A stretch of 30,138 bases of DNA from a virus. The notes under the pieces were generated by a model. That model was not told the origin of the DNA, made no database searches, and was given only the letters and a program-made list of their open reading frames with translations. Positions 3,312 through 27,980 of the stretch are shown in pieces. Every line of letters begins with the position of its first letter. Position 1 is the first letter of the stretch. Where the stretch lies: positions 1 through 30,138 of IMG/VR virus record IMGVR_UViG_3300036770_001984, one strand, 5' to 3'. Made by a program: the position numbers and the translations under genes.

Positions 3312-3604
3312 TGGCCCGCGTCCTGCTCACCCTCTCCGAAGCCGCCGAAGCTCTCGGCGTCAGCAAGCGCCACGTTGAGCGGCTGGTGGCCGAGGCCGAC
3401 GCCAACCGCAAGAGCCGGTGGCGATGGGGCAGGGAGCTGATCGACCTGGCACCCGTCGGCGCCAGCCGGCGCACAGTCAGGGTCAACCTGGCAGCGGTGG
3501 TGCCGCATCTCCCAGCAACGCCCGCTCCGCTGCCTCTGCCACCAAGTGCGGCTGAATGTGCGCCCGGTAGGTCTTCGCGTGCTGCGTCGGCGTGTGCCCC
3601 ATGA
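3311..3604 (+). CDS. Excisionase-like helix-turn-helix protein
   Basis: Begins MARVLLTLSEAAEALGVSKR, the typical start of the MerR/excisionase-type winged HTH (LTLSEAAEALGVSKRHVERL) in which one small domain reads a DNA site. The basic RKSRWRWGRELID segment follows. The C-terminal Pro/Ala-rich third overlaps the integrase gene in the opposite direction for 122 bp. Pairing with the adjacent integrase suggests a recombination directionality factor, though a regulator is also possible. Coupled to the upstream gene by a GTGATG junction. Confidence 0.65.
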   Translation: MARVLLTLSEAAEALGVSKRHVERLVAEADANRKSRWRWGRELIDLAPVGASRRTVRVNLAAVVPHLPATPAPLPLPPSAAECAPGRSSRAASACAP

Positions 3605-4499
3605 GCCGCGCCGCGGTGTAGATGTCCAGCCTGCTGCCGCCGGTGCTCCACAGCCGGCCCGCATAGGCATGGCGCAGCGCATAGGGCCGCCACGGAAGCC
3701 CTCGGCACTGCCGCCACAGCCACTTCGCCACCACGTCCGGCCGGGCGTGGGCCGCACCGGGCAGGGTTGGCCGCAGCCGCCGGTCATGCAGCCGGAACCG
3801 CTCCACCCACTCGCGCGGCAATGGCACCACGGTGCGGAAGCCGGTCTTCGTGGCTTCTGCCACCTGGCAGTAGTCCCGGTCAATCAGCACCGCGCCTTCG
3901 ATCTCGTGGGGCCGCAGACCATAGGTCGCCATCATCCCCAGGTACCAGGCCGCTGGCCCTGAGCCTTCGACCCACGCGATGATCTCGTCATCGGTCGGCA
4001 CCGCCACCGCTGCAGCGTCGCGGTAGGTCGGCGCCGGCACCTCCGGGAACGGCACGGCCACCAGCTTCGCTAGGTGGCGCAGCAGGTAGAACAGCTCCTT
4101 GTAGGAGCAGCTGCCCCGGTCGTACTTCTGCAGTGCCTCGGCGATGCTGTCGCTCGTCACCTGCCCACCGGGCGGCAGCTGGCGGAGCCGGCCCATGTAG
4201 TTGATCTCCCAGGTGCTCTCTGACGTGCGGCCGAGCACCACCCGGGCCCGGTAGAGCTTGGCGATCGCGTCCCGCCAGGTGATGCCCGGTTCCGCACCGG
4301 TCCAGTAGCCCCACTCGAACGTGCCGGCCTTGAGCTGTCGCTCCAGGGTCTGCAGCTGCTTGGCGGCAATGCGGCGGTTGACCGGCGTGTCGTCGAGCCG
4401 CAAGGCGATCCGCGCCTGCTTCAGCCCCGGCTGGCCGTCGCGCCGGGGCACCCTGGCCACCAGGTAGAGGCGGCCCTGCTGGGCGTTGATCGAGGCCAT
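3483..4499 (-). CDS. int: Tyrosine site-specific recombinase (phage integrase)
   Basis: Catalyses integration and, with a directionality factor, excision between attP and attB. The 338-residue product has an N-terminal arm-binding and core-binding part (residues 1-165) and a C-terminal catalytic domain. Visible active-site residues are Arg196 (GLRPHEIEG), Lys218 (TKTGFR), Arg276 (YALRHAYA, with Tyr where many relatives have the first His), His302 (LMGHT) and the nucleophile Tyr311 (KTYRAH). The ATG at 4499 is followed by a normal N-terminus. Its 3' end overlaps the excisionase-like gene. Its presence marks the phage as temperate. Confidence 0.92.
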   Translation of the reverse strand: MASINAQQGRLYLVARVPRRDGQPGLKQARIALRLDDTPVNRRIAAKQLQTLERQLKAGTFEWGYWTGAEPGITWRDAIAKLYRARVVLGRTSESTWEINYMGRLRQLPPGGQVTSDSIAEALQKYDRGSCSYKELFYLLRHLAKLVAVPFPEVPAPTYRDAAAVAVPTDDEIIAWVEGSGPAAWYLGMMATYGLRPHEIEGAVLIDRDYCQVAEATKTGFRTVVPLPREWVERFRLHDRRLRPTLPGAAHARPDVVAKWLWRQCRGLPWRPYALRHAYAGRLWSTGGSRLDIYTAARLMGHTPTQHAKTYRAHIQPHLVAEAAERALLGDAAPPLPG

Positions 4500-11687: not shown

Positions 11688-12608
11688 TCAGGCCACCACG
11701 GCCGCATCGGTCACGCCATAGAGGCGGGCGGCGGAGCGACCGTTGTAGATCGCCATGCCGCAATACCACTCGATCCGCGTACGGTCGACGGGAGCATCAG
11801 GCACCTCACCCATGGCCCGCACCGAGATGCCGAACTGCCCGCGGCAGCGGCCCTGGATGGCAGTGGTGAGCAGATCACCCATGGCCACGCAGTAGATGCT
11901 GGTGCTGGAGCTGGCCTCGGTGAACGGCTGAACCGGCAGATTCTGCGCGTTGGTGTCGGTCACGATGATCGGCACGTCCCCGTACTGCGTCACCCGACGG
12001 CCGAAGCTGTCGAGCTCATAGTTGATGAACCCACCGATGTTGGTGGCACGGCTGGCGGTGTTGAGCCGGCGGCGCATCTTCTTGTTCATGATCAGCACCT
12101 TCTGGCCGCCCATGGCGTCGCAGGCGTCGATCAGCTCATCGAGAGCAGAGAGCGACAGGGCGCCGTTCATGTTGATCGCCTGGGAGCTGCCGGCATTGAT
12201 CCGGCGCTTCAGGCCATCGAACGAGCGAGGATTGACCGACTCATCACCGTTGATGAACTGGTCCTCGAAGGTCATCCGCATGGAGGTGACCTTCATCCGC
12301 ACCTGATCACCCACGGCATCAGGGCCGCGCATGTCAATGATGCTGGTGTCAACGTCCACCTCAGCGCCCAGCACCTTCAGCCGCTCGGACTGGGGGTTGA
12401 GCACGCCATAGGAGGCGTCGAGGGTTTCGTTGATGCCACGGAAGCCGACGGACGGCAGTTCCTGCTCGACGTCGTAGAAGACGCCTTCACCTTCCACATC
12501 CTGGAAGGGGATGACGCGCATGAGTTCGCCTTCGGCGAGTTCACGAATAACGGCGAGGCGGGCCGGATCCCTTTCAGATTTGGCCGCCTCCAGAAGGGTC
12601 AAGCCCAT
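11688..12608 (-). CDS. Major capsid protein (HK97-type fold)
   Basis: The 306-residue protein follows the scaffold gene. Typical features are the N-terminal helix (MGLTLLEAAKSERDPARLAV), the segment VDVDTSIIDMRG leading to TFEDQFINGDESVNPRSFDG (the long backbone helix and a turn seen in many capsid proteins), the P-domain part LDELIDACDAMGGQKVLIMN, and the C-terminal A-domain (IYCVAMGDLL, GISVRAMGEVPDAPVDRTRI, EWYCGMAIYNGRSAARL). No protease domain is fused. No clear ribosome binding site stands before the ATG. Confidence 0.85.
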   Translation of the reverse strand: MGLTLLEAAKSERDPARLAVIRELAEGELMRVIPFQDVEGEGVFYDVEQELPSVGFRGINETLDASYGVLNPQSERLKVLGAEVDVDTSIIDMRGPDAVGDQVRMKVTSMRMTFEDQFINGDESVNPRSFDGLKRRINAGSSQAINMNGALSLSALDELIDACDAMGGQKVLIMNKKMRRRLNTASRATNIGGFINYELDSFGRRVTQYGDVPIIVTDTNAQNLPVQPFTEASSSTSIYCVAMGDLLTTAIQGRCRGQFGISVRAMGEVPDAPVDRTRIEWYCGMAIYNGRSAARLYGVTDAAVVA

Positions 12609-12699
12609 GGGAGAACTGTTGAATGAACGACGGGTTGTGGCATCACGCCGGGGTGGGAGGCATCACGCTTCCCGCATTGCCTGAGAGTGCCGGTAGCTG
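12609..12699 (-). other. Gap between scaffold and capsid genes
   Basis: These 91 bases carry no plausible coding frame. They hold two GGCATCACGC repeats (12639-12648 and 12659-12668) spaced 20 bases apart and, on the minus strand, a weak junction-motif-like CCGGCACTCTCAGG. The only long non-coding gap in the head module sits before the most highly expressed gene, so regulation is plausible. Confidence 0.4.
12639..12668. repeat. Two copies of GGCATCACGC (a third at 13461-13470)
   Basis: The 10-mer GGCATCACGC occurs at 12639-12648 and 12659-12668, exactly 20 bases apart, and again at 13461-13470 in front of the scaffold gene. Copies on both sides of the scaffold gene suggest a protein-binding site or an RNA element for scaffold/capsid ratio control. 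No hairpin is formed by a single copy. Confidence 0.4.
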
Positions 12700-13455
12700 T
12701 TAAGCCGTCCGGCGGCGTGCACCGAAGCTCTCGCGGAACAGTTGGCCGGTCGGCACCTTCGTCAGATCGGCGCTGTTGCTGACGCGGCCGTCACGGCCGG
12801 AGCGGGCGCCGCTGCCGCTGCCGTACTCGGGCTGAAAGTGCATCCCATGCACGGGATCCTTGCGGAGCTTCGCGAAGAACTCGGTCGGCGTGATCCGCTT
12901 GCCGGTCTCCTCATCGAGCCGGGGCGAGCCGTCGGCATCCACCAGGTACAGGCCGCCCTTGTCTTCGGCGAAGTCGTTGCCGTAGAGCTGCCAGATGTAG
13001 TCGAATGGCGTGCGGCCGTCGATGCTGCTGGCCTCGGTGGCACCCTTGGCCTTGAGGAACTCGCGCTCTGTCTTGATCCGCAGCGCCTCGCGTTCGGCGG
13101 CGGTCTTCTGCTGCTGCAGCTCGCCGGTGATCCGGGCCAGCTGCTCCTGATACTTCCGCTCCTGCTCCTGCAGGCGCAGGGTGGTCTGCTGCTCCACCAT
13201 CAGCCGCTGCTGTTCGGCTTCACGGGCCCGCTGGCGGGCTTCGTCGAGCAGCTTCGGGTCCACCTGGCCGACTTCGCGAAGCTGGGCATCCAGCTGGGCG
13301 GCGCGGGCGGCTTCCTGCTTGCGTTGCTGCCGCTCGGCCTCAAGCGCTTTCTTCAGGCGGGCGATGTCATCGCTGGGCTCGCCGGTGGTGGTGTCTTGCT
13401 GGTCGGTGGCCTGCTGCTGGAGCTCAGCGGTCTGGGTGGGATCTTGATCGGACAT
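12700..13455 (-). CDS. Capsid scaffolding protein
   Basis: The 251-residue, highly charged product is encoded just before the capsid gene. Residues 30-135 form a continuous coiled coil (LKKALEAERQQRKQEA, LRLQEQERKYQEQLARITGE), and the C-terminal part (DGRTPFDYIWQLYGNDF, RITPTEFFAKLRKDPVHGMH) is a compact end that could bind the capsid shell. The Gln/Asp-rich N-terminus is disordered. It acts as an internal assembly template that leaves before maturation. Start: ATG 13455 after a motif-containing leader. Confidence 0.8.
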   Translation of the reverse strand: MSDQDPTQTAELQQQATDQQDTTTGEPSDDIARLKKALEAERQQRKQEAARAAQLDAQLREVGQVDPKLLDEARQRAREAEQQRLMVEQQTTLRLQEQERKYQEQLARITGELQQQKTAAEREALRIKTEREFLKAKGATEASSIDGRTPFDYIWQLYGNDFAEDKGGLYLVDADGSPRLDEETGKRITPTEFFAKLRKDPVHGMHFQPEYGSGSGARSGRDGRVSNSADLTKVPTGQLFRESFGARRRTA

Positions 13456-21075: not shown

Positions 21076-24000
21076 TCACCTCAGCTGCTGGAGCGTCCGC
21101 AGCACCTGGCTGCCACTGACCCCGGTTCGCTGCGTGACGTTGATGTTCCATTGACGCCGCGCCAGCTCGCCCACTTCCTGCCTGAGCTTTCCGATCTCGA
21201 CTGCCAGTTCTGCAGTGCCGCCCGGGGCCGCCATGCCACCAGCAGACGGCAGAGCGCCGGCATCCTGCAGCCGGGCGGTGATACCAGCCGGCACGACGAC
21301 ACCGCTCGACGGCGCCCGCCAGATGGCGTTCTGCGGTGCGTTGATCAGCGACAGCCGGCCGGCCGACAGGAAGGCCTCCTGGCCGAGCTCGTTGATCTTG
21401 TACTCAGCGCCGGCCTCCACCGGGCCACCGGTCCAGCGGGAGCCGGGGAGGTTCGAGGCCTTAAGCAGCCAGTCGTAGAACCGCTGCGCCTCAACCGCCG
21501 CTTCCCTGGTCCGATCGCGAACGGCCGTCATCCCGCCAGCGAGGTTCAGGCTGGCGATCCGCTCGGCAAACACCTTCGCGCTACTGAGGAAGGCCGCGAA
21601 GTCCCGGGCACCCTGCGCTGCCGCCGGGGCGTTCTTGCCGGTGGACACGAAGGCGTTGGCGATGTCGCCGGCCGGCGTCTTGCCCTGAGCCAGGCTGTTG
21701 CGCAGGGCGTCGGTGGATCCCCGGGCGTCCCGTGCGCTGCTGCCGCTGTCGCCGATCAGCTCGGCCACGTCATCGGCGGCGACGCCGGCATTAACCAGGG
21801 ACTGGCGCAGTTGATCCGTCGCCGTCTTGGTGCCACCAGCGGCCCGGGTGCCGGCGTCGTAACCGCCCTTCGTCTTGCCCAACTCGGCATTCGTGCTCTG
21901 CACCGCCCGGGCCACGTCCTGCTGGTTCCGGCCAAGCACCAGCGAGCCATCGGCCGCACGGCCGATCGCCAGGCCCGCCTGCTGCGCGATGCCGCGGAAG
22001 CGCTCCTGCTCCTGCGCGCTCTGACCACTGAACACCGCGACCCGTTCCATGCCGGAGCTCAGGTTGCGGCTCGCCACCAGGGAGCCGTCGGCGGCGATCT
22101 TGAAGCCCTTGGCGGCGGCTTCTGCCTGCAGGCCATTGCGAGCGGTCTCACCAGCGGCTGCAGCGATCGCCCGTTCGATGGGCTGGGTCTTCGCCAGCGT
22201 GCCGGCCTTCTGCTCCACCACGCCGAGGATCTGGTTCTGCAGGTTCACCTGGGCCTGTGCCGCGGCCTTTTCCTCGGCGGTGGTGGCCTTCGCCAGGTTC
22301 GCCTGCGCCTCGAGGATCTTGGCCTTCTGCTCCAGGATCTGCAGATTCGCCTCTGTCCGTGCCTTCTCCTGGCTCAGCAGCAGCATCTGTCGCTCCAGGG
22401 CCTGCTGCTGCACCAGCGCCTGGTAGCGGGCCGACAGTGCCGCCCGGTCCACCCGGTCGATCTCGGCTTTCTTCGCGGCGATCGCCGACTCACCAGCGCC
22501 GCGCTCCTCCAGGCCCTTCAGCTCGAACTGGAGCGCCGAGCGGGTCACGTTGAAGCGCGACTGCTCCAGGTCGCCGACCGCCTTCGTCAGCCCCAGCAGC
22601 TGCTGCCCCACCGCCAGCTGGGCCTCCAGGTTGCGGACGGGGGCGCTGGCGAGGATCTTGTTCAGTTCGTCTTCGGCTTTCTTCTGCTTCTCGATCGCAT
22701 CGACCTGCTCTTTGGTCTTCGCGATGTTTTCAACCTTGGCGCCAGTCGTTTTGTTAGTCCGATCAGCGACACCCTGAAGCGCAACGATCAGCCGGCCGGA
22801 GACACTCGCCTCCACCTCCATATTCTTGGCGTTCTGCTCGGCGATCTTCGCCAAGTCGTTATTGCCGGCCGCCCGATACGATGCGGCCAGCTCTCGATAT
22901 GCCGCCGCCTGCCCGGTTGCTGCTTCCTTGATTGACTGGAGGCTGGCGATGCGCTCCTGGACGCTCTTGGCTTGCTCGGGTGTCAGCGTTGTGGCGTTTT
23001 TTAGCTCAACAAATGTCTTTTGCGCTGCCTGCTGAACCTCGGTGAACTTCGCTTGAAGCTGCTGCGATTGGTCACTGATCGTGCCAAGTGCATTTGCCTT
23101 TGAGAAGTTGTCAACCGCTGAGTAGAACAGCCGGATCACGCCTTCCAGTGGCGCAGCGATCAGCCGCAGCGCAATGGGCAGGTTCTCGAAGAACTTGATC
23201 ACGCCATTGCTGTTTTGGGCCAAGGCCTTGTTCGCTTCGCTGGCGTTCTCCGTGGATCCAGAGACGGCATCCAGCGCCTTCTGCGTCTCCAGCAGCCGCT
23301 CCTTGTACCCTTCCGATGCTTCCGACGCGGCACCGGTGATCTTCTGATAAGCCTCCACTGCAGCAGCGATGTAGGCGAACCGAAGCGCGACGACGGCGAC
23401 TTGGCCAGCAAGCCCGAGCAGCGCCTTGCCGATTCCGCCGATGGCCGACAGGAGGCCCTGGCTGCGCACGGCGGTCGTGAAGACCTGCCATTCAACCTTT
23501 GCAGCAACGATGGCTCTTTGGAAGTCCTGTTTGATGGTGCTTGCGATACTCCTGAAGAACCCGATCAGCTCCTGAACTTGCTGCGTTTGCAGCACAGCGG
23601 TAAACAGAGCTGCAGCGGTTCGGGCGCCAACATAGGCACTGGTCAGAGCGACCAGTGCGCCTGCAACGGCCCTGACTGGGCCGGGAAGATTGAGCGCGAC
23701 ATTGACAACATTATTGAAGGCGTTGATTACCGCCGTCACCGGCGGCGCCAATCCCTCAAACGCCTGAACCGCAAGATTGCTGAACGTGTTTCCAAGCCGC
23801 TTGAGCGACCCGTCAATCGTGTTCGTTGCTTGTTCAGCCGATCTTGCGGCGACGCCTGCAGCCCCAGCCTGGTTTCTCAGGAACTGGTTGTACTTCGCCA
23901 GCTGATCATTCACCAGCGGCTGGATCGCGGCCTGTGCCTCGACCGATCCGGTCAGCTTGATGATCGCGTCCGCTGAACCACCGGTCCTCTTCGCCACCTC

Positions 24001-25164
24001 GGTCAGCAGTCCGCCGAAGCCCTTGGCCTTCAGCGCCGAGGCCGAGAAGTCCAGGCCCAGCTGCTTGGCATAGGTCGACGCCTCCACCGATGGCTTCAGG
24101 ATCGAGCTGATCGCCTGCCGCAGACCGGCGAACGTGCTGCCCACCGGCACGCCCTGCGCAGTGGCGACCGAGATCGCAGCGTTCAGCTCCTCGATGCTGA
24201 CGCCAGACGCTGCGGCGACCGGTGCGATGCGGCCGATCTCGGTGGCGTACTGGCCAACGGTGATCTTGCCGTCGTTCTGGGTCTGGATGAAGCCGTCGAT
24301 CAGCTTGCGGGCCTTGTCGGACGACAGCCCGTAGGCGTTCAACACCGATGTCGCAGCATCCGCGACAGTGTTGATGTCGGTGAAGCCGCCAACGGCGCCG
24401 TCCTGCGCAGCCGAGAGGATGTTGGTGGCATCAGCGGCACTGGCGAAGCCGGATGAAGCGACGTCGTAGCTGGCTTTGAGCAGGTCCACCGCCGACACGT
24501 TGCCCTTGGTCGATGCGCTCAGCTTGAGCAGTCGGTTGCCCAGGTCGTCGGCATCCACCCCCAGGGTGCGCACCGCGGCCTTGGCGCTGTCGAACTGCCG
24601 CACCTGCTGCGGAATTGCGGCCAGCCCCTGCAGTGCCGCGGCGGCTGCGTTCGTCAGCGTGTTGGCCAGGCTGAAGGCGATGCCTTGCACCACTCCATCG
24701 AGCGCCCGCAGGCCGCCGGTCGACTGGCCAGCCTTCGCCAGCTCCTTCTCGGTCGCGCCGATCGCCGTCTGCAGCTCCCTGAACCGCTGCGAGCCGATCG
24801 CGACCTTGCCCAGCTCCGACTGCAGGCCCGCCAGCTTGGCGTTCAGGCCCTCGATGCTGCGCGGGTCTGCCTGCACCGCCACCCGGGCGCTGCGCAGGGT
24901 GTCGATCTGCTTCTGAACCGCGCTGATCTGCTGGTTCAGGACGATGACCTGCCCGCCATCAACGTTGACGGCCGCCTTCTGCGCCTTCAGTCGGCCCAGG
25001 TCAGCCAGCAGGGCGTCAATGCTGCGGTTGACGGCGCCCTGGATGCCGCCGCCGAGCGCCTGGCCGGCCGCCTGGCCCGACTGCTGCGCGCTGCGCTCAA
25101 CCAGCTTGAAACCTTGCAGCAGCTCGGAGAAGTCACCGCCGACTGTGACTGAGAAGTCGCTCAT
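21076..25164 (-). CDS. Tail tape measure protein
   Basis: Sets tail length and helps DNA entry. The 1362-residue product starts MSDFSVTVGGDFSELLQGFK, with coiled coils (residues 50-150), followed by a TP901-type tape-measure core (about 190-450: LLKASYDVASSGFASAADAT, VGQYATEIGRIAPVAAASGV), hydrophobic segments around 500-640 that could cross the membrane, and a long helical part (820-1000, LQILEQKAKILEAQANLAKA). At roughly 1.5 A per residue a tail near 200 nm is expected (inference). Part of the middle (about 22,700-23,750) is AT-richer, suggesting exchange. Overlaps gene 25161 by 4 bp. Confidence 0.9.
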   Translation of the reverse strand: MSDFSVTVGGDFSELLQGFKLVERSAQQSGQAAGQALGGGIQGAVNRSIDALLADLGRLKAQKAAVNVDGGQVIVLNQQISAVQKQIDTLRSARVAVQADPRSIEGLNAKLAGLQSELGKVAIGSQRFRELQTAIGATEKELAKAGQSTGGLRALDGVVQGIAFSLANTLTNAAAAALQGLAAIPQQVRQFDSAKAAVRTLGVDADDLGNRLLKLSASTKGNVSAVDLLKASYDVASSGFASAADATNILSAAQDGAVGGFTDINTVADAATSVLNAYGLSSDKARKLIDGFIQTQNDGKITVGQYATEIGRIAPVAAASGVSIEELNAAISVATAQGVPVGSTFAGLRQAISSILKPSVEASTYAKQLGLDFSASALKAKGFGGLLTEVAKRTGGSADAIIKLTGSVEAQAAIQPLVNDQLAKYNQFLRNQAGAAGVAARSAEQATNTIDGSLKRLGNTFSNLAVQAFEGLAPPVTAVINAFNNVVNVALNLPGPVRAVAGALVALTSAYVGARTAAALFTAVLQTQQVQELIGFFRSIASTIKQDFQRAIVAAKVEWQVFTTAVRSQGLLSAIGGIGKALLGLAGQVAVVALRFAYIAAAVEAYQKITGAASEASEGYKERLLETQKALDAVSGSTENASEANKALAQNSNGVIKFFENLPIALRLIAAPLEGVIRLFYSAVDNFSKANALGTISDQSQQLQAKFTEVQQAAQKTFVELKNATTLTPEQAKSVQERIASLQSIKEAATGQAAAYRELAASYRAAGNNDLAKIAEQNAKNMEVEASVSGRLIVALQGVADRTNKTTGAKVENIAKTKEQVDAIEKQKKAEDELNKILASAPVRNLEAQLAVGQQLLGLTKAVGDLEQSRFNVTRSALQFELKGLEERGAGESAIAAKKAEIDRVDRAALSARYQALVQQQALERQMLLLSQEKARTEANLQILEQKAKILEAQANLAKATTAEEKAAAQAQVNLQNQILGVVEQKAGTLAKTQPIERAIAAAAGETARNGLQAEAAAKGFKIAADGSLVASRNLSSGMERVAVFSGQSAQEQERFRGIAQQAGLAIGRAADGSLVLGRNQQDVARAVQSTNAELGKTKGGYDAGTRAAGGTKTATDQLRQSLVNAGVAADDVAELIGDSGSSARDARGSTDALRNSLAQGKTPAGDIANAFVSTGKNAPAAAQGARDFAAFLSSAKVFAERIASLNLAGGMTAVRDRTREAAVEAQRFYDWLLKASNLPGSRWTGGPVEAGAEYKINELGQEAFLSAGRLSLINAPQNAIWRAPSSGVVVPAGITARLQDAGALPSAGGMAAPGGTAELAVEIGKLRQEVGELARRQWNINVTQRTGVSGSQVLRTLQQLR

Positions 25165-25681: not shown

Positions 25682-26524
25682 TCAGGCCAGGTCGAGTTCA
25701 TACGGGCCATAGGCCTTGATGTTCGTCGACCACTTCACGATGCCGCCAGCGGGCGGGGTTTCGTTGAAGCCGGTGAAGCGCCCGTAGCCGTAGGTGGCCT
25801 CGTTGAAGCCAGTGGGGCCAACGCGGGCGTACTTGATCATCAGCCGTTCACGGACCGACTCCTTCGAGCAGATGCGCAGCAGCTGGTAGGCGGCATCCAT
25901 GTGATCGGTGACGCCTTCCACCGTCCAGCTGAAGCCCTTGGATGTGGCGATGCTGGTCTCGAAGCTCTTGGCCTCGTCGTCGTAGGTGATGATCGTCTCT
26001 TCACCTTCGGTCTCGGCCGGGGCCGCATTGGTCAGGCCCAGCAGGCGGATCGGCTTGGCGGTGCCGTCCAGGGCGATGACACCGCTTGAGGCGGTGCCGG
26101 CCGCCACCGTGGCCTCGGTGATGTTGTCGGCGGTGAAGGCGAAGGCCAGGGTGAACGGCGTGCTGGTGGTGACGCCGGTGATGGTGTGGATGCCGTTGAG
26201 CGCGGCGAACGGAGCCGGCAGGCCATCCACGGAGATCACCGCACCCTGGGCAAAGCCATGGGCGGCGGCGAAGGTCAGCGTGGCCACGTTGGTGGCGATT
26301 GCAGCCTTGGTGATGGTCTTCGTCACCTTGTCGGCGAACAGCTTGAAGGTGGCGCCGGTGCCGCTCTTGCTGATCACCGCGTCATTGCTGAGCAGGCTGG
26401 TGTCATCGAGGAACTTACCGCTGCCGACACCGCCAAGATCCAGCTCGGTGAGATCCACTTCGGTGGTGATCACCGGCGCGAAATAGAACTTGTAGCCGTA
26501 GGCCTGGGAGTAATTCTGAGCCAC
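25682..26524 (-). CDS. Major tail tube protein with inserted beta domain
   Basis: The 280-residue product ends TGFNETPPAGGIVKWSTNIK-AYGPYELDLA, the closing pattern of siphophage tube proteins, and has WTVEGVTDHMDAAYQLLRIC before it. Residues about 70-146 are an extra beta domain (TKAAIATNVATLTFAAAHGF, GIHTITGVTTSTPFTLAFAF) related to that in gene 10981. The GTG at 26524 (VAQNYSQAYGYKF) is chosen because no ATG exists; a GTG at 26620 would add 32 residues with four Cys/Arg-rich turns unlike a tube protein. No good ribosome binding site; the start abuts a hairpin. Confidence 0.7.
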   Translation of the reverse strand: MAQNYSQAYGYKFYFAPVITTEVDLTELDLGGVGSGKFLDDTSLLSNDAVISKSGTGATFKLFADKVTKTITKAAIATNVATLTFAAAHGFAQGAVISVDGLPAPFAALNGIHTITGVTTSTPFTLAFAFTADNITEATVAAGTASSGVIALDGTAKPIRLLGLTNAAPAETEGEETIITYDDEAKSFETSIATSKGFSWTVEGVTDHMDAAYQLLRICSKESVRERLMIKYARVGPTGFNEATYGYGRFTGFNETPPAGGIVKWSTNIKAYGPYELDLA

Positions 26525-26549
26525 AGGGAAGATGTGGAATGCTTCCCTG
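26524..26549 (-). promoter_or_regulatory. Hairpin abutting the tail-tube start codon
   Basis: CAGGGAAG and CTTCCCTG form a perfect eight-pair stem around a 10-base loop, ending at the proposed GTG. It could control tube translation by hiding or presenting the start. The region upstream lacks a normal Shine-Dalgarno sequence. Confidence 0.4.
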
Positions 26550-26596
26550 CCAGTGATCCGATCCCGCCTAAGACACGCACACGGCTTACAGAACCG

Positions 26597-26630: not shown

Positions 26631-26933
26631 GTGGCCTGTTACCCGAAGGGCGTCTGCTACTGCCCCCACGTCAAGCGCCGGCCGTTCCAGGCCCGCGTCT
26701 GGTGGGCCGGCCGGTACTGGAGCCTCGGGTACTTCGGCAGCATCACGGAGGCGGAGATGGCAGCGGCGCGGGTGCGCTCGGAGATTCGCGAATGGGCAGA
26801 CATGCAGCTGCCTCCGCCCACACTGCAGCCGCTCCTCCAGCGGGCGGAGCAACGGCAAGCCACGCCACCGGCTCCTGATCCCCAGGCCAGCGAAACGCCC
26901 GCACCTGATCCGCTGCCGAGTGCTCGGCGATGA
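26631..26933 (+). CDS. AP2-like DNA-binding-domain protein (moron)
   Basis: The 100-residue product starts with GTG (MACYPKGVCYCPHVKRRPFQ). Residues 16-50 (RPFQARVWWAGRYWSLGYFG...TEAEMAAARVRSEI) fit the short three-strand-plus-helix AP2/integrase-type DNA-binding fold, often found in phage HNH nucleases and regulators. The Pro/Ala-rich C-terminus overlaps the -1 frame of the tail chaperone antisense by about 190 bases. Lone orientation and its own motif copy suggest a moron. A regulator is possible; the target is unknown. Confidence 0.55.
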   Translation: MACYPKGVCYCPHVKRRPFQARVWWAGRYWSLGYFGSITEAEMAAARVRSEIREWADMQLPPPTLQPLLQRAEQRQATPPAPDPQASETPAPDPLPSARR

Positions 26934-27980
26934 GGAACCCGCACCAGGCCTCGCCCTGCCGCCGCGGCGCCAGCAGGATCGCATCGTCGGCCACCAGGGC
27001 CAGCGGGGATGGCGCCGGCTGTCCCTGGCCGGCCTGCAGCAGCGGCTCGTAGAACGTGAGCGCGAAGCTCGGGAACTGCCGCGCGGCGATCAGGGCCAGC
27101 ATCGCGGCGCCGGCATCGGCAGGTGGCTGCTCGCCGGGCTCGCGGTTGCGGAACAGGCAGAAGTCCGCCAGCGGCGGGATCGTGGCGCCTTCCTTGGCGT
27201 GGATCTCGAGCGTCAGCTTCGCCAGGGCTGCCACCGGCAGCTCGGCCCAGTGCAGCTGCTGGTTCAGCCAGCGCTCGCCTTCTTCGATCGCCTGGAGGAT
27301 GTAGTCGAGGGTGAGGTCTCCGAAACGGTCGGGGCCGAACTCAGGAGCAGCTGGCCAGAGCTGTCGGCATCGCCAGTAGAGCGCTCCCCAGTCGGTGGGC
27401 TCGGGGAGGCCTCCGGCGCGAGCTTTCCCAGGGTCTCAACCATGTCCTCCACCAGCTCGTCGGGGCTGCGCTGCGGCTTGTCGCCGGCCTGCTCCTCGGA
27501 TGCAAACGCGAAGATCGCATCCTGCAGGGGCCCGGGCAGGTCGCCGCTGTCGTCGTCGGTCCAGGCCTGGCAGCCGGGCAGCCGATGGGTGATGACGGCG
27601 GTGATGGTCCGCAGCCGCTGCTGATCGAACGCATCCTGCAGGGCGCAGGACAGATCGGCGATCAGTGGCGCCTGGCGCAGCATCGCCCGCTGCTCGGCAG
27701 CATCGAGAGCCACCGGGATCCCCATGCGGGTGGAGATGATGCGGATCGCCATCCGCTGCGCTTCGGTCTCTTCGACGCCTTCGGCCACCAGCGCATCAGC
27801 CAGGCGGGAGCTCTCGCGGTAGACGACGCTCTGGTATTCGTGCTCACGGATCGCGATGATCTCCTTGCCCTTCAGGGCCCGGTAGACCGGAAACTCCAGG
27901 CTGCAGTCCTGGCCATCAACAGTGGCCGAGACCATGCGCGTGCGGATCGTCGGCGCAACGACGAACGGAAGCTGTGGCAT
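26743..27980 (-). CDS. Frameshifted tail assembly chaperone (GT-like, long form)
   Basis: The long product is made by a -1 shift at 27423-27429: 186 codons in the zero frame, then about 226 codons in the -1 frame, roughly 412 residues. The -1 frame opens only two codons before the slippery site and at once reads as good protein (GLPEPTDWGALYWRCRQLWP, then TLDYILQAIEEGERWLNQQL), long before any start codon, so it can hardly be expressed otherwise. As in lambda GT, the T part should bind the tube while the G part binds the tape measure. The last 60 codons overlap gene 26631 antisense. Confidence 0.8.
27264..27980 (-). CDS. Tail assembly chaperone (G-like, short form)
   Basis: The unshifted 238-residue product: MPQLPFVVAPTIRTRMVSAT, a beta-rich start, then helical (ETEAQRMAIRIISTRMGIPV, LQDAFDQQRLRTITAVITHR) and a low-complexity Ser/Thr-rich end after the slip site. 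ATG 27980 is preferred to an earlier in-frame start that would overlap the preceding gene. G-like proteins coat the tape measure before tube polymerisation and are lost from the virion. A motif-like copy lies 20 bases before the ATG. Confidence 0.75.
   Translation of the reverse strand: MPQLPFVVAPTIRTRMVSATVDGQDCSLEFPVYRALKGKEIIAIREHEYQSVVYRESSRLADALVAEGVEETEAQRMAIRIISTRMGIPVALDAAEQRAMLRQAPLIADLSCALQDAFDQQRLRTITAVITHRLPGCQAWTDDDSGDLPGPLQDAIFAFASEEQAGDKPQRSPDELVEDMVETLGKLAPEASPSPPTGERSTGDADSSGQLLLSSAPTVSETSPSTTSSRRSKKASAG
27423..27429 (-). other. Programmed -1 ribosomal frameshift site GGGAAAG
   Basis: In the zero frame the codons are CTG GGA AAG, giving the X-XXY-YYZ heptamer GGGAAAG, the same as in lambda gene G. 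The next frame is open for 227 codons. A downstream pseudoknot was not checked. Confidence 0.8.

Follow-up and report, generated by a model that had tools for sequence, protein, structure and literature searches.

The stretch of DNA analysed here (the window) is a metagenomic virus contig of 30,138 bases, the minus strand of which carries a putative pair of tail assembly chaperone genes (Table 1). In the upstream open reading frame, residues 1-186 of 238 precede or include a slippery heptamer and about 51 residues follow it, the 0 frame continuing for ~156 nt beyond the heptamer. A preliminary description of this DNA had reported GGGAAAG in phase and a TGA just upstream of it in the -1 frame; both were recovered on the minus strand, the TGA being followed by Asp-Pro and then by the heptamer. 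The same description had counted 227 open codons in the -1 frame and placed the first possible start 190 bases after the slip. The frame is indeed open and its start is late, although the count is 228 codons from GGG, and the first possible start (GTG 27234) lies 195 nt past the first base of the heptamer. The stop of the -1 segment ends at 26743. The junction GKAR-AGGLPEP given earlier is correct, and the predicted fusion reads ...ETLGK-ARAGGLPEP across it.

Table 1. Features of the putative chaperone locus and of the neighbouring tail genes in the window.
Feature	Position	Strand	Basis or remark
0-frame ORF, putative short chaperone (G-like), 238 aa	27264..27980	-	viral homologues
Slippery heptamer G GGA AAG	27423..27429	-	0-frame phase CTG GGA AAG in ORF 27980-27264
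TGA shutting the -1 frame just 5' of the heptamer	27436..27438	-	sequence
-1 frame segment (T-like), C-terminal part of the predicted fusion	26743..27429	-	open 228 codons counted from GGG
Apparent dual-coded overlap, ~50 codons in both 0 and -1 frames	27264..27422	-	reduced 4-fold site variation
Tail tube (major tail) protein gene	25682..26560 (start approximate)	-	phrog_38654 tail protein, E 8e-45
Tape measure protein gene	21076..25164	-	phrog_991, E 7e-47; PhageMin_Tail, E 3e-26

The pair is located among the tail genes, near the tape measure gene and upstream of the tube gene. All informative metagenomic loci share one gene order: gp10-like - G - T - tube - small protein - tape measure. 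The tube protein of the window matches the major tail proteins of the S-CRES phages and S-CBS2. It is longer than these proteins and the match is limited to its residues ~150-291, which indicates an extra N-terminal or inserted part in the window protein. An antisense ORF of 100 aa (26631-26933, plus strand) is convergent with the T segment and overlaps its 3' end. By tblastn, nearly every related locus has it in the equivalent position, and in its codons outside T substitution is in excess at the third position (0.458 versus about 0.21), which makes a real gene probable. A weak match to the later portion of HNH endonuclease families suggests that the product may be a stand-alone DNA-binding domain; in isolate cyanophages, this position after T is occupied by an antisense gene for an HNH endonuclease. 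Elsewhere on the minus strand, the major capsid and scaffold genes (11688-13455) lie downstream of the tail genes, and the structural module is thus in tail-then-head order on the contig. An integrase-like ORF (3483-4499, minus strand; phrog_1, E 1.6e-11) suggests that the phage may be temperate.

Counted as a bare 7-mer, GGGAAAG shows no enrichment in the window (3 observed versus 2.95 expected). Its presence alone therefore proves nothing, and the weight lies on its phase, position and conservation. An in-phase GGGAAAG has a chance of ~8.5e-5 per codon, or ~0.005 over the ~55-codon overlap. Searches with both protein segments, together with an alignment of the second, retrieved about 60 related viral loci. 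In every tabulated locus (n = 61), the second segment lies at -1 relative to the 0-frame gene, and GGGAAAG occurs in the same phase in 59 of them, loci that share descent and are not independent trials. After collapse at 97% identity, the heptamer is in phase in 31/31 representatives, the window included. GGA represents only 10.1% of the glycine codons in the same genes, yet it is kept at the slip site, and about half of the comparable 4-fold sites differ in the group of the window, third positions elsewhere being free to vary. Heptamer and frame relation are thus kept across relatives beyond chance, and their conserved place and phase constitute strong evidence for the predicted slip site. 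In the window, nearly all related loci and the four isolates examined alike, a heptamer of the form X XXY YYZ lies inside the ORF overlap, in the 0 frame. The 0 frame runs 144-402 nt past the heptamer across the metagenomic relatives. Conservation of the -1 frame 5' of the heptamer, which the preliminary description had named as contrary evidence, was absent, as stops close this frame nearby, at varying distances, in most relatives.

The two loci lacking the heptamer are L039 (GGAAAAG) and L065 (GGGGAAG). In L039 (1346-1380), the change from GGGAAAG to GGAAAAG is accompanied by a new 0-frame TGA that overlaps an ATG of the -1 frame (ATGA). Five of the nine differences between L039 and L037 are clustered in about 50 nt surrounding the slip, and the change may reflect either stop/start coupling in place of the frameshift or an artefact of the sequence. 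Copies of the pair were also sought as prophages in bacterial genomes, and none was confirmed.

The coding frame changes from 0 to -1 at the slip site. In the group of the window, pairwise substitutions by codon position are 0.26/0.23/0.49 upstream of the slip, where the third position of 0-frame codons is highest, and 0.25/0.25/0.45 downstream of the overlap, where the third position of -1 frame codons is highest. Within the overlap, the third position of -1 frame codons is again highest, with a damped peak (0.21/0.21/0.33). The 4-fold sites of the -1 frame are likewise less variable in the overlap than downstream, both in this group (0.319 versus 0.512, permutation P 0.0006) and in a second one (0.288 versus 0.390, P 0.023). 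Selection thus apparently acts on both frames in this region, which is what two products would require. The openness of the 0 frame, given the -1 protein, is not unusually long (individual P about 0.05-0.9); openness alone is therefore no evidence of dual coding, whereas the reduced 4-fold variation is.

Homologues were found by tblastn in the Synechococcus/Prochlorococcus cyanosiphophages PSS2, S-CRES1, S-CRES2, S-CRES3 and S-CBS2, the T segments of which are homologous to that of the window with 31-33% identity. In the four isolates examined for a slip site (PSS2, S-CRES1, S-CRES3 and S-CBS2), the second segment is at -1 with a slippery heptamer in phase in the overlap, as in the window. This heptamer is GGGAAAG in PSS2 and S-CRES3, as in the window, and AAAAAAG in S-CRES1 and S-CBS2. 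Unlike in the window, the overlap after the slip is very short in the S-CRES phages and S-CBS2, and the in-phase heptamer is at or almost at the 0-frame stop in three of the four isolates. The pair precedes the tube gene in S-CRES1, S-CRES3 and S-CBS2, as it does in the window; in PSS2 the tail protein match is about 18 kb from the pair. The deposited second genes of the four isolates start roughly 120-210 nt past the slip and the frameshift is unannotated, in agreement with the earlier expectation that gene callers would miss the fusion and truncate the second gene. In the S-CBS2 record, the neighbouring genes are labelled structural and the putative chaperone pair hypothetical, as would fit products that are absent from virions. 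We found no paper describing the frameshift in PSS2 or S-CBS2 in the open-access literature, although such a description may exist elsewhere.

At the protein level, the -1 segment corresponds to phrog_34388, which has no function label, in all 31 aligned members, and the T copies of the S-CRES phages carry the annotation 'tail assembly protein'. The T protein of PSS2 matches Pfam Phage_tail_T (lambda T) with an E-value of 6.6e-4 and 20.5 bits, below the curated cut-off of 25.9. The 0-frame protein matched no Pfam chaperone family, and hhalign of both profiles against the single sequences of lambda gpG and gpT gave no match. The AlphaFold2 model of 0-frame residues 1-186 (mean pLDDT 88.5) has an N-terminal beta hairpin followed by helices; that of the -1 segment has a mean pLDDT of 81 and a pTM of 0.54. 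A PDB fold search with both models returned nothing significant, and a viral structure search with the 0-frame model gave one significant match, the unnamed F4YCJ6 (E 2.3e-5). We infer the chaperone role of the pair from gene position and frameshift architecture.

Taken together, the locus is very probably a tail assembly chaperone gene pair expressed via programmed -1 ribosomal frameshifting. Most ribosomes would stay in the 0 frame and produce the short protein of 238 aa, while a minority would move back by one base at G GGA AAG, with GGA-AAG re-pairing as GGG-AAA. This minority would continue in the -1 frame past the 0-frame stop and produce a fusion of about 412 aa (186 shared residues and 226 from the -1 frame). 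On the lambda model, coating of the tape measure protein would fall to the shared part and recruitment of tail tube subunits to the -1 part, and both products would leave before the virion is completed. Slippage and its efficiency are what we infer for the window; in lambda and in relatives of HK97, the efficiency amounts to a few percent. The preliminary description had proposed a search for RNA structure downstream of the slip. Such a search found no conserved structure: an alignment of 21 sequences contained no compensatory pairs. The 70 nt downstream of the slip in the window fold at -30.8 kcal/mol with a z of only -1.2, and among single folds of the window and its relatives, only that of L011 stood out (z -2.41). 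No conserved upstream Shine-Dalgarno-like stimulator was seen by eye in an alignment of 31 representatives.

The same proteins could be encoded by two separate genes, the -1 segment being translated independently, through reinitiation or internal initiation at GTG 27234 or at an ATG near 27102, with an incidental heptamer. In many relatives an ATG indeed follows the heptamer at a distance of 327-333 nt, and L039 no longer has the heptamer but does have a new ATGA overlap. However, the protein is conserved right from the slip, before any start (A-R, D-W, W-R-C-R, L-W-P), substitutions in the segment 5' of any start follow the periodicity of the -1 frame, and an incidental heptamer would not stay invariant. 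The first -1 frame starts of the relatives are at varying positions, usually 160-340 nt in, and among the 61 related loci there is no conserved start codon able to make the whole -1 segment, an independent start of this kind being the other contrary evidence named at the outset. This arrangement therefore appears very improbable. Transcriptional rather than ribosomal slippage yields the same protein products in other systems, and the AAAAAAG copies of S-CRES1 and S-CBS2 hold an A run. Yet at the site of the window neither the G run nor the A run exceeds three bases, which falls short of known transcriptional slippage, for which A runs longer than 7 are quoted (PMC3711429), and conservation spans the two-codon re-pairing pattern X XXY YYZ; we regard a transcriptional origin of the fusion as extremely improbable. 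Finally, in a sequence that comes from a metagenomic contig, a sequencing or assembly indel could have split one continuous gene. The chance of this is practically negligible, the artefact being refuted by independent sequences, since the same -1 relation recurs in the isolates PSS2, S-CRES1, S-CRES3 and S-CBS2 and in 61 loci spread over many metagenomes.

Beyond the programmed frameshift itself, it is possible, though on balance unlikely, that the overlap is truly dual-coding with a function of its own for the unshifted C-terminal tail, and that in some lineages, such as L039, ATGA stop/start coupling has replaced the frameshift. The tail of the unshifted protein is basic and rich in Ser, Thr and Pro. 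If this proposal were true, both products could be made by interchangeable translational devices.

Our analysis adds a family of cyanobacterial siphophages to the phages with a lambda-type tail frameshift, a family whose chaperone sequences are recognised neither by current Pfam nor by PHROGs function labels, and shows that the isolate genomes of PSS2, S-CRES1, S-CRES3 and S-CBS2 carry truncated second-gene annotations. Both the consistent position of the pair, ahead of the tube gene, and the length of the dual-coded overlap should help annotation and the study of whether the unshifted tail is important. The data support a frameshift pair that is ordinary in kind and new in this family.

Low-level G-T frameshifting is widely conserved among long-tailed phages, and in E. 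coli the sequence G_GGA_AAG is highly prone to shifting (PMC5009743). As in HK97-type chaperones, a low-level frameshift, predicted in the case of the window, would fuse two chaperone ORFs; for a cluster similar to HK97, the measured frameshift efficiency is 6-7% (PMC3711429). The pair of the window shows no sequence similarity to the HK97-type that Pfam could detect and no detectable similarity to lambda gpG or gpT beyond the one sub-threshold Phage_tail_T match of PSS2 T. With lambda G/GT it shares the heptamer GGGAAAG, its phase and the -1 shift in the upstream ORF, as well as a C-terminal extension in the -1 frame and the proximity of tail tube and tape measure genes. In contrast, the gene order is V(tube)-G-T-H in lambda and G-T-tube-small protein-tape measure in the window, and the 0 frame of lambda stops 18 nt past the heptamer, compared with ~156 nt. 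The statement of the preliminary description that the locus reproduces lambda G/GT thus holds for the predicted mechanism and not fully for the anatomy, as gene order, overlap length and sequence differ. The differences in gene order and overlap length are variations within a known kind.
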